Part shown: positions 18,360 through 22,442 of the stretch, one piece after another
How the letters are laid out: each line of letters starts with the position of its first letter
How positions within the stretch are numbered: position 1 is the first letter of the stretch
Source of the DNA: Candidatus Zhuqueibacterota bacterium
Lineage (GTDB): Bacteria > Zhuqueibacterota > Zhuqueibacteria > Oceanimicrobiales > Oceanimicrobiaceae
Reading direction: 5' to 3'
DNA: 64,000 nt
NCBI GenBank assembly: GCA_029262005.1
Contig: JAJDAG010000008.1
Location: forward strand, 1-64,000
The notes under the pieces: generated by a model
The model's input: only the letters and a program-made list of their open reading frames with translations
Databases searched by the model: none
Told to the model about the DNA's origin: nothing
Made by a program: the position numbers and the translations under genes

Positions 18360-19559
18360 CTAACGCCGCCGATTGCCAACTACAAATAAACACACCTGAG
18401 CCGGTGCACGAAATCTGAAGGGCATCAGCGCAAAACCCAGTCCGTTGTTGATATTCGTGAACATATTTTGCACCAAGCGCCCCCTGTTATAATAGGGGGT
18501 TTCCACTTTAGCAAGCGTCACAGCTTTGCCAAACAGCTTAAGTACAATCTGCCCCCCATGCGTGTGACCAGCAAAAAAAAAGTGGTAACCACGCTCGGCA
18601 ACCAATTCGATCATGGACTCAGATGGCTGATGCGTTATTGCAATATCGAGGACACCGCGCGGTTGTTGCCCCATCAAATAGTTCAAAGTATCCAGGTTTG
18701 TTTTTTCCCGATAATGGTTGGTGATAAATGTGAGCAACAGCCTATCATTCCCCAATTTTACAAATTGATTTGCGTCTTGCCATACAGCGATATTATGCGT
18801 AAGGAGAATATTCATCACTTTTTCTGAACCAATAAGCGCATCATGATCACCAAGACAGGCCACCACACCGCAACCGGATTTTACTTTTCCAAGCAACAAT
18901 GCGGCCTCCTGGAGCAAATCCTCATTTGAGGCGGCTAAATCACCTGTGAAAATGACCAGGTCAGGAGCCAATTTGCTGACTTTCTTAAGATAGCGCTTGA
19001 GTCGGCGCACCCTGGTACGCTTGTCGAGCAAAAAATCACTAATGTGGACGATTCTGAGTCCATCGATCTTTCCACGTAGATTGTCGAATTTCACAGTAGT
19101 TTTCGAAACGCGGATCAAGAATGTATCCAACAGAATTCTAAAAATCACATAAACCGAATATGCTGCCAAAAATCCAAAAACGACATAATATTCATAATGA
19201 ATCCAGGACTCCTTGAGCGGCTTATACAGAGGGTGAAAAGGCAACTTCAAAAAATCGATTAAAAGCAACCAGGGCGAAACCTCGGCTGCGAGAATTGCTC
19301 CAAAACCAAACGGCCATGCGAGCATATCAATTATTTTCGAGCGCCCGGCAAGAACAAGCTCCACTTTTTCAGGGGCAATCGTTTTAAGAACTATTAGCAG
19401 CAAAGGATAAAGAGAGCAAATTATAAGAACCCCGCCTAAATAAGGAAAAAGCGTGGCGCGGGAAAGACCTAAAACCACAGCGGTGGAGACGTAGATTTTG
19501 CTTCCCACATATAGGTAGGCAACGATAAGCAGAGGAAAAAGTGAAAGCAGTAGTCGCAA
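18360..19559 (-). CDS. Membrane-anchored metallophosphoesterase with altered metal-binding motif
   Basis: A 399-residue calcineurin-like phosphoesterase. Four N-terminal hydrophobic segments (about residues 1-165) anchor it in the membrane, as in YkuE/YaeI-type proteins of lipid or envelope metabolism. The catalytic domain shows VIFTGDLA, AITHQP and FAGHTHGGQI. The first motif, normally DLH, is DFL (HISDFLLDK), so a metal-binding histidine is lost, and the GNHD motif reads GDHD. Catalysis may be reduced or altered. It starts 12 bases after the stop of the AhpD-like selenoprotein candidate and is probably cotranscribed with it. Confidence 0.82.
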   Translation of the reverse strand: MRLLLSLFPLLIVAYLYVGSKIYVSTAVVLGLSRATLFPYLGGVLIICSLYPLLLIVLKTIAPEKVELVLAGRSKIIDMLAWPFGFGAILAAEVSPWLLLIDFLKLPFHPLYKPLKESWIHYEYYVVFGFLAAYSVYVIFRILLDTFLIRVSKTTVKFDNLRGKIDGLRIVHISDFLLDKRTRVRRLKRYLKKVSKLAPDLVIFTGDLAASNEDLLQEAALLLGKVKSGCGVVACLGDHDALIGSEKVMNILLTHNIAVWQDANQFVKLGNDRLLLTFITNHYREKTNLDTLNYLMGQQPRGVLDIAITHQPSESMIELVAERGYHFFFAGHTHGGQIVLKLFGKAVTLAKVETPYYNRGRLVQNMFTNINNGLGFALMPFRFRAPAQVCLFVVGNRRR

Positions 19560-19571
19560 ATTGATCGCTGA

Positions 19572-20120
19572 TTATTGGTTAGTCCAGTAAGGCTCGAGTT
19601 CGACACCCGTCCCATCGGCAAGCCGATTCACGAAATTGAAATACCCCGTAATCTGACAGATATCCAGAATAGCGCTATCGCTAAATCCAGCCTCCCGCAA
19701 CAACTCCACATCTGTCGATTCCATTTTCGCCGGCGTTACCGTCAGCTTGTAAGCATAACTTAGCATGGCCATGTCCGCAGAAGAAATCTCGGCCTGGCGA
19801 AAGTCCTCGGCGATTCGCGCAACCAAATCGTCATCTTTAATTAACCGACGGAGTCCCGCTCCGTGATGCGTTATTCAGTAGTGGCAGTTGTTTGCTGCCG
19901 AAACCACAACAGCAATCATTTCCCTCTGAGCCCGCTTTAGCTCGGAGCGGCCGAACATAAGCATCCTATAGAACTCGAAATGCCCTTTCAAAGAAGCTGG
20001 GTTCAAACTGTGGATCTTTAAAATATTGTCAACAGCACCATCCTTCGTCATACACCTATCGAACATTTCCTTGAGATCGCCTTGAGCATCACGCTCCGCA
20101 ATCATCTTTATCCAAGCCAT
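19572..20120 (-). CDS. AhpD-like peroxidase-related protein, probable selenoprotein (CxxU, in-frame TGA at codon 82)
   Basis: Two short reading frames in the same phase, separated by one TGA (19877-19875), together encode 182 residues of the carboxymuconolactone decarboxylase/AhpD family ('peroxidase-related enzyme' group, normally 180-190 residues). Before the TGA the protein reads VSAANNCHY and after it ITHHGAGLRR. The family redox motif is CxxCxxxH, and the TGA stands exactly at the second cysteine, giving CHYUITH. Downstream conservation continues (AMLSYAYKL, FNFVNRLADGTGVELEPYW). A SECIS-like hairpin starts ten bases after the TGA. Selenocysteine is therefore the best reading; a Cys-to-stop mutation or sequencing error is the alternative. 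It would reduce peroxides. Sec machinery genes are outside the window. Confidence 0.8.
19842..19877 (-). promoter_or_regulatory. Bacterial SECIS-like element after the in-frame TGA
   Basis: On the minus strand, ACGGAG (19864-19859) and CTCCGT (19853-19848) form a perfect six-pair stem with the five-base loop CGGGA. The loop starts 16 bases after the TGA and has G at its second position, both within the accepted rules for bacterial SECIS elements. A lower stem TAAC (19873-19870) with GTTA (19845-19842) extends it across an internal loop, placing the TGA at the base. This structure would be bound by SelB. Confidence 0.72.
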
Positions 20121-20276: not shown

Positions 20277-22442
20277 TTGCAGTCACAAGATTTTTACGCA
20301 CTCATTGCCGATGAGTTAAAAGTTAATGCGCGGCAAGTGCAAAGTACCGTTGAACTACTAGACGAAGGAAATACACTTCCGTTTATCGCGCGTTACCGCA
20401 AGGAAGTAACAGGCGGCCTTGATGAAGAACAAATTCGACATATCGAAGATCGCATTCGCTATGTGCGCAATTTGGAAGAAAGAAAACAAACCATACTGGA
20501 GTCCATTGAGAAACAAGGAAAATTAACTCCTGAACTACAAGCTAAAATAACAAGAGCGACCATGCTGCAGGAGCTGGAAGATCTCTATTTGCCGTATCGG
20601 CCCAAGAAACGCACACGCGCAACCATTGCCCGTGAAAAGGGGCTGGAGCCTCTGGCTGAAATGCTGCTGGCACAGGAACTCGAAAGTGGCGAACTCGATG
20701 AAATCGCGCAACAATTTATTGATCCTGAAAAAGAGGTCAATAACACCGAGGAGGCCTTTTCCGGTGCCAGAGATATCGTGGCCGAAACCATTGCATGCGA
20801 TGCAGATGTAAGAAAAGATATTCGTAAATTTACTTTCAGGACAGGGCTTATGACTTCAAAAGTCCGTGACGGCAAAGAACTGTCTGTCTATGAAATGTAT
20901 GCAGACTACTCTGAGCTGGCCAAAGCGATTCGGCCGCATAGAGTGCTTGCGATGAATCGAGGAGAACGTGAAGGCGTCTTGCGAGTAAGCCTTGAGGTTG
21001 AAGAAGAGCCTGCGTTGAACCTAATACATAAACGATATTTAAAAAATAAAAAATCCGTTTTTGTCGAGCAGGCAACCCTGGCAATGGCTGATTCCTATCA
21101 CAGGTTGGTTGCCCCGGCAATTCAGCGCGACATCCGCAATCACATGACAGAGCAGGCAGACGAACATGCCATTGCCGTTTTTGCTGAAAATGTGAGAAAC
21201 CTCTTTCTGGCGCCCCCTGTCCGGGAAAAGATTATCATGGGAATCGACCCGGGATACCGCACAGGTTGTAAAGTGGCGGTTATTGACGAAACAGGAAAAT
21301 ATATCGAAGGCATTACAATTTACCCGCATCCACCCCAGAAGCGCTGGGATTTCTCCAAGCAACAACTTCTGCAGCTCATAGAAAAACACAATGTCGGAAT
21401 TGTCGCCATTGGCAATGGTACCGCAAGCAGGGAAACCGAACAACTCGCGGCTGAGCTGATTGCAGAACTAAAGGCAGATTTATTCTATGTTATTGTCAGC
21501 GAAGCCGGCGCATCCGTCTATTCTGCTTCGCCGGTTGCTAAAGAAGAATTTCCGGACTTACCGGTGGAAATGCGTGGTAATATATCTATTGCCAGGCGGC
21601 TCATGGATCCGCTATCGGAGTTGGTAAAAATCGATCCAAAATCCATAGGTGTCGGGCTCTACCAGCACGATGTCAACCAAACACGTCTGGCAGACTCGCT
21701 TGATCGCGTTGTCGAGTCGGCCGTGAACTATGTGGGTGTCGATCTCAATACCGCTTCAAAATTATTACTGAAATGTGTGGCCGGCATCAATAGCCGGACA
21801 GCCCAAAATATAGTAGAATACAGAGAGCAGAATGGTCGATTTACTTCTCGCAGTGAATTGACCAAGGTCAAAGGACTTGGCGACAAGGCATTTATGCAAT
21901 CTGCCGGCTTTCTCCGTATTCCGGACGGCGATATTTTTTTGGATGCTACCGCAGTTCACCCGGAGTCATATTCAGCAACAGAAGCGCTTCTGAATATTCT
22001 GGACTTAGAAGAATCCGATGTCAAAACGGACGGCTTAACTTTGAGGCTGAAAGTTCAGCAAAGCAATAAGAGAATGACTGAGATTGCCTCTGAGTGCAGA
22101 GTAGGTGTGCCAACGCTCGAAGATATTATCGAAAGTCTGGAAAAACCAAATCGCGATCCGCGTGATGAAATGCCCAAACCCATTTTGCGCAGTGATGTGC
22201 TCAAGCTGGAAGACCTGAGCGTCGGCATGGTCCTAAAGGGCACAGTCAGAAATGTTGTAGACTTTGGCGCGTTTGTGGATATTGGACTCAAAACAGATGG
22301 GCTGGTGCACAAGAGCATGATGGCAAAGAAGTATGTGAAAAACCCAATGGATTTTACCTCAGTCGGAGATGTCGTCGATGTGAAAGTTCTGAAGATCGAT
22401 GCGGAAAAAGGCAGGATTAGCCTGAGTATGGTTCTCGATTGA
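20277..22442 (+). CDS. tex: Tex-family RNA-binding transcription accessory protein
   Basis: A 721-residue cytoplasmic protein of the Tex/Spt6-like family, which binds nucleic acid and affects transcription. Domains in order are a helical N-terminal region (ELLDEGNTLPFIARYRKE), a YqgF/RNase H-like domain (MGIDPGYRTGCKVAVID), helix-hairpin-helix motifs (SRTAQNIVEYREQNGRF) and a C-terminal S1 domain (VGMVLKGTVRNVVDFGAFVDIG). The start is TTG at 20277, with AGGAGA seven bases upstream and the normal family N-terminus. A hairpin at 22450-22485 follows the stop codon. Confidence 0.95.
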   Translation: MQSQDFYALIADELKVNARQVQSTVELLDEGNTLPFIARYRKEVTGGLDEEQIRHIEDRIRYVRNLEERKQTILESIEKQGKLTPELQAKITRATMLQELEDLYLPYRPKKRTRATIAREKGLEPLAEMLLAQELESGELDEIAQQFIDPEKEVNNTEEAFSGARDIVAETIACDADVRKDIRKFTFRTGLMTSKVRDGKELSVYEMYADYSELAKAIRPHRVLAMNRGEREGVLRVSLEVEEEPALNLIHKRYLKNKKSVFVEQATLAMADSYHRLVAPAIQRDIRNHMTEQADEHAIAVFAENVRNLFLAPPVREKIIMGIDPGYRTGCKVAVIDETGKYIEGITIYPHPPQKRWDFSKQQLLQLIEKHNVGIVAIGNGTASRETEQLAAELIAELKADLFYVIVSEAGASVYSASPVAKEEFPDLPVEMRGNISIARRLMDPLSELVKIDPKSIGVGLYQHDVNQTRLADSLDRVVESAVNYVGVDLNTASKLLLKCVAGINSRTAQNIVEYREQNGRFTSRSELTKVKGLGDKAFMQSAGFLRIPDGDIFLDATAVHPESYSATEALLNILDLEESDVKTDGLTLRLKVQQSNKRMTEIASECRVGVPTLEDIIESLEKPNRDPRDEMPKPILRSDVLKLEDLSVGMVLKGTVRNVVDFGAFVDIGLKTDGLVHKSMMAKKYVKNPMDFTSVGDVVDVKVLKIDAEKGRISLSMVLD

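Follow-up and report, generated by a model that had tools for sequence, protein, structure and literature searches.

An AhpD-like gene with an in-frame TGA, strongly supported as a selenoprotein gene, in a KSB1-type bacterial genome

AhpD-like selenoproteins with a CxxU motif were predicted in 2005 from the Sargasso Sea, as a set of 27 sequences assigned to COG2128 (PMC1088965), and again in 2008 from the GOS metagenomes (PMC2398784); a 2026 review lists the entry "AhpD-like protein, TIGR01926, CxxU" (PMC13188914). The statement of the sequence-only reading, that such proteins had been predicted before, mainly from marine metagenomes, agrees with these reports. The gene described here resembles the catalogued ones in its TIGR01926 assignment, in the CxxU motif, where Sec takes the place of the second Cys, and in the bSECIS directly downstream; while those were first reported from marine reads, it is found in a genome of KSB1 type which encodes the complete Sec system, and has relatives in many phyla. 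It is almost certainly a real selenoprotein of an already catalogued family, and the family is not new. Three things are added: a well-supported member from a little-studied, uncultured lineage of KSB1 type; the finding that Sec is broadly distributed, and apparently fixed, in its subclade; and, in a lineage reported to lack it, a canonical selC gene.

The features of the locus are listed in Table 1, where positions refer to the window, i.e. the whole stretch of 64,000 nucleotides analyzed. By translation, the frame runs from an ATG (20120..20118) to a TAA (19574..19572) on the minus strand, and its lone interruption is the TGA at 19877..19875, as had been read from the sequence alone. The context of codon 82 is NNCHY-TGA-ITHHGAGL and, with TGA taken as Sec, the protein reads MAWIKMIAERDAQG...SAANNCHYUITHHGAGLRRL.... 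The codon aligns with the second Cys of the CxxC motif in the PDB homologues 3c1l and 2pfx, precisely where the sequence-only reading had placed it, and Cys is also found at this site in L022, L146 and plasmid homologues: AhpD-like selenoproteins of the CxxU type are recognized by a TGA which replaces the second CxxC cysteine and by the existence of homologues with Cys. Among 18 TGA-split frames of the window, selected by a crude length filter, just this one features a CxxU directly at the TGA. Under translation table 11 the frame is reported as two ORFs, of 81 and 84 aa, and the gene is therefore likely to be under-annotated.

Table 1. Features of the AhpD-like locus, with window positions
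Feature	Position	Strand	Basis
AhpD-like selenoprotein gene, 182 aa, TIGR01926 / CMD-AhpD fold	19572..20120	-	translation; NCBIfam 162.4 bits; AF2; PDB fold matches
In-frame TGA (codon 82), predicted to encode the Sec of C79-H-Y-U82	19875..19877	-	TGA in best 80/80 relatives
TGC codon of Cys79, the predicted resolving residue of CxxU	19884..19886	-	invariant, 38-row alignment
His86 codon, proton-relay His (= M. tuberculosis AhpD His137 by spacing)	19863..19865	-	invariant; PMC3141380
Glu67 codon, proton-relay Glu (= Glu118, 12 residues before first Cys)	19920..19922	-	invariant; PMC3141380
bSECIS hairpin with 6-bp stem and 5-nt loop, CGGGA (19858..19854); G of the loop at 19857	19848..19864	-	fold; synonymous-site constraint; shuffles; 77/81
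Membrane metallophosphoesterase ORF (Metallophos), downstream, separate gene	18360..19559	-	scan; syntenic in four near relatives alone
Divergent Tex (RNA-binding transcription accessory) gene, upstream neighbor	20277..22442	+	scan; synteny

The protein belongs to the TIGR01926 peroxidase-related enzymes, with 162.4 bits against a cut-off of 81.8, and scores 41.6 bits with Pfam CMD. It falls outside two related families: NF041238, the alkylhydroperoxidase-related (seleno)protein CFYUT, whose related AhpD domain contains a Sec motif (69.7 vs a cut-off of 175), and the classical AhpD family TIGR00777 (21.2 bits vs 191.95), which includes M. tuberculosis AhpD and has the catalytic core and the proton-relay spacing in common with it. 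The AlphaFold2 model, obtained from 38 sequences (pLDDT 95.6, pTM 0.91), finds as best Foldseek matches 3c1l, 6k40, 2pfx, 2prr and 2oyo, followed by AhpD 6e8l and the debrominase Bmp8, TM ranging from 0.84 to 0.92 for the PDB fold matches. The Mlr4105 peroxidase-related protein (3c1l), 2pfx, 6k40 and 2prr share the fold at TM 0.87-0.92 and about 30-39% identity.

In AhpD the proton relay is formed by Glu118, Cys130, His132, Cys133 and His137, with PA0269 featuring Tyr for His132 (PMC3141380). The pattern Glu-x11-Cys-x-Tyr/His-Cys-x3-His is present in the AhpD-like protein with U at the second Cys; E67, C79, Y81, U82 and H86 are invariant in the 38 sequences, at a spacing which fits the relay.

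The hairpin following the TGA, ACGGAG-CGGGA-CUCCGU, has a predicted energy of -7.3 kcal/mol alone and of -7.6 over the 30 nt from the UGA to the end of the stem. The sequence-only reading had described a six-pair stem with G in the second loop position, both seen in the fold, and had located it 16 bases downstream; the hairpin is real, while its stem begins 10 nt after the TGA, and the distance of 16 nt fits the start of the apical loop. Bacterial SECIS rules call for an apical loop of 3-9 nt, an upper stem of 4-16 bp, a G at loop position 1 or 2, a UGA-to-loop distance of 16-37 nt and a MFE <= -7.5 (PMC13188914). With its loop of 5 nt, stem of 6 bp, G as the second loop base, distance of 16 nt and energy of -7.6, the hairpin lies within all of these, spacing and energy standing at the limit of the allowed ranges. 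Taken as a single sequence, it is unremarkable: the shuffle z is between -1.7 and -2.2, and the energy is borderline with respect to the rule. No bSECIS match was found over the hairpin in Rfam, whose sole match, Poribacteria-1 (E 2.2), is due to chance.

The case for the hairpin comes from its relatives. A bSECIS-like hairpin at the TGA is present in 77 of 81 sequences, against 4-33% at eight control offsets; it is retained by nearly all relatives which keep the TGA. Eight Cys homologues were used as a control, and none of them has a hairpin that qualifies at the spacing of the Sec genes (16-18 nt); some hairpin is found in three, at 13, 15 and 27 nt, one being a strong GC-rich stem. In Leu-Leu variants (e.g. 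L068), read by eye, the stem forms in a shifted register, ACGGAGC-CGGGCU-GCUCCGU, with a loop still starting by CGGG.

Selection at the RNA level was evaluated on 73 non-redundant sequences, the window gene and 72 relatives, by comparing third-position entropy with that of within-gene synonymous shuffles. Codons 87, 88, 90, 91, 86 and 85, all within the hairpin or adjoining it, score z values of -21.0, -20.1, -10.1, -10.1, -9.4 and -6.7, and are six of the seven lowest among 182 codons; these values are descriptive, since the codon-shuffle null models ignore phylogeny. The hairpin is the most strongly constrained synonymous stretch of the gene, the His37 codon excepted. At the latter, away from the hairpin, CAC is favored over CAT (61 of 73 sequences, z -11.8). 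When 24-nt windows are considered, only the hairpin folds beyond synonymous draws (mean z -1.46), mean z for the nine others lying between -0.18 and +0.26. In the main register, 89.6% of the stem cells are paired, a figure which falls to 27-51% on sliding the register, and none of 500 shuffles reaches as high. Five sequences contain C-G to U-A double changes in the stem. Pair covariation, considered as proof of a SECIS, is weak by itself, as most of the stem is fixed by coding constraints: the covariation score is equalled by 96 of 500 shuffles and the number of double-change pairs by 390 of 500, and the synonymous-site tests were used instead. Across the 73 sequences, the hairpin is far beyond chance.

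The host genome (5.77 Mb, 205 contigs, 98.7% complete) contains all four genes which define a Sec-decoding organism. A tRNA-Sec (selC) is found at C33:1971-2064 (L001 1499-1594) with 70 bits and is called tRNA-SeC, anticodon TCA, by ARAGORN; selB (C33:35163-37049, 367 bits), selA (C113, 569 bits) and selD (C193, 411 bits) all score over their curated cut-offs. The selD frame, of 749 aa, has the size of a fusion, and Ndh-SelD fusions have been described by the GOS authors (PMC2398784). A radical SAM protein, below all NCBIfam cut-offs shown, lies near selC (L001 1898-2908).

These genes bear on the possibility that TGA is read as an amino acid other than Sec, by code reassignment or natural suppression, with which a frame left open under a changed code would be compatible. 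The neighboring genes of the window are intact under table 11 and another of its ORFs terminates in TGA; furthermore, the in-frame TGA takes the place of the redox Cys, with a SECIS after it, and the genome encodes a dedicated tRNA-Sec in addition to selA, selB and selD. Such a reading is very improbable. Selenocysteine incorporation at codon 82, as originally proposed, is instead strongly supported by the sel genes, by the TGA in all of the best 80 relatives and by the hairpin in 77 of 81 sequences.

In a previous study of KSB1, selA, selB and selD were reported and selC was not, selenoproteins being suggested as still possible (PMC9012183). A tRNA-Sec match of at least 62 bits is present in 41 of the 61 genomes of the KSB1-type class, host included, and a canonical selC, clear in the host, is present in most of these genomes, contrary to the reported absence. 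In one genome (G006, contig C50; L127 456-496) only the first 41 nt of tRNA-Sec are matched, to just after the anticodon loop; beyond this lies other sequence, which towards its far end consists of a repeat occurring in multiple copies in the host's family, and no group I or II intron is found by Rfam in the region. An insertion, an intron or a chimeric contig may account for it. In G003 and G007, which contain selA, selB, selD and TGA genes, no tRNA-Sec was found either by covariance model or by BLAST; in G007 the contig ends soon after selB.

The genomes closest to the host belong to candidate division KSB1, apart from one which carries the label Caldithrix. The class relatives L010-L019, 56-66% identical, each contain one TGA at the codon-82 site. 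A scan of 84,980 species genomes, ranked by similarity to the Sec-group alignment, provided the best 80 relatives (54-66% identity): TGA is found at codon 82 in all 80 (78 by regular expression, L091 and L101 by eye) and Cys in none, in a selection which, because of this ranking, does not represent more distant Cys forms. They span about eight phyla, namely KSB1, Calditrichota, Acidobacteriota, Chloroflexota, Gemmatimonadota, Planctomycetota, Marinimicrobia (Fidelibacterota) and Zixibacteria; among others, Chloroflexota, Acidobacteriota, Planctomycetota, Gemmatimonadota and Marinimicrobia show the Sec family to be both widespread and stable. No relative was found in phage records.

The two ORFs obtained under table 11 could also be taken as an 81-aa truncated protein, or a pseudogene, followed by a relic, the TGA being an ordinary stop or a disabling mutation. 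Conservation argues decisively against this, as both the TGA and the protein on its two sides are maintained in the best 80 relatives, over about eight phyla; the catalytic His and the C-terminal helices come after the TGA, and the RNA-level constraint lies directly 3' of it, so that this explanation retains scarcely any probability. That TGC or TGT was turned into TGA by an assembly or sequencing error, conceivable for a genome in 205 contigs, is untenable and of negligible probability, as the identical TGA recurs in dozens of independent assemblies, including the class relatives. What looks like a gene interrupted by a stop is, almost certainly, a single intact gene whose TGA inserts Sec.

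A genome of the host's family (G005) contains no selA, selB or selD over cut-off, and its best tRNA-Sec match is a tRNA-Leu according to ARAGORN; its homologue, 40% identical, has TGT at the Sec site. It was considered as a converted orthologue, and rejected as such: it groups with Cys proteins from Aureibacter, Aminobacter and Deinococcus, on a branch of 1.86 changes per site. Such a long branch, shared with Cys proteins of other phyla, indicates a separate Cys subfamily rather than a recent conversion; the coincidence of Cys with the absence of sel genes holds, and is a weaker control. Overall, the Sec/Cys label requires three changes on the tree. It is conceivable, if rather unlikely, that the subclade (54-66% identical, about eight phyla) is a Sec-obligate enzyme, without any replacement of Sec by Cys, and that Cys forms stay on long separate branches. 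If so, this would suggest a selenium-requiring reaction, possibly not plain peroxide reduction, since the same fold includes the debrominase Bmp8.

The AhpD fold and the five conserved relay positions point to a Sec-dependent peroxidase or a peroxiredoxin-reducing adaptor as the likely role; as TIGR01926 has no settled biochemical function, peroxidase chemistry is given here as a prediction. In AhpD, the nucleophile is the residue nearer the relay His. For Sec incorporation, for the peroxidase or adaptor activity and for the physiological reductant, we infer the following scheme. Sec-tRNA-Sec, from selC, would be made by SelA with selenophosphate provided by SelD; SelB, carrying it, would bind the bSECIS hairpin 10 nt downstream, letting the ribosome read UGA-82 as selenocysteine. 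The product would adopt the all-helical AhpD-family fold, with Glu67, Cys79, Tyr81, Sec82 and His86 at the relay positions. Most likely, the Sec selenolate would attack a peroxide, or the oxidized disulfide of a peroxiredoxin, and Cys79 would resolve Sec via a selenenylsulfide, to be reduced by cellular thiols or thioredoxin. What the computations show is the conservation of the TGA, the constraint on the RNA, the machinery, the fold and the motif. That this is a true selenoprotein, with UGA-82 decoded via SelB and the bSECIS, and an AhpD-fold product predicted to use Sec82/Cys79 chemistry, is very highly probable.

The gene had also been described as joined to a membrane phosphoesterase. The latter is a separate downstream ORF, not a fusion, possibly co-transcribed with the AhpD-like gene; the arrangement, with Tex upstream and the metallophosphoesterase downstream, is kept in four near relatives only (L037, L038, L039, L041). 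A general functional link to the phosphoesterase was discarded, adjacency being detected in these four loci alone, and synteny of the Tex/phosphoesterase context indicates no general operon link. No AhpC was found among the neighboring genes scanned.

Other TGA-containing genes were observed among the relatives. Two genomes, G003 and G001, contain a second, divergent TIGR01926 paralogue, also with TGA (L027, CHYUMQAHAEDLR; L028, CRYUIEAHAEDLR), which has its own hairpin, ACGCAGAGGAUCUGCGU. L025 and L026, from G037 and G057, are AhpD-like proteins with a TGA and without the resolving Cys, their motif being GGAP-U-LGxH. In the Gemmatimonadales homologue L112 a second in-frame TGA, at codon 22, may represent either an error or an extra Sec.
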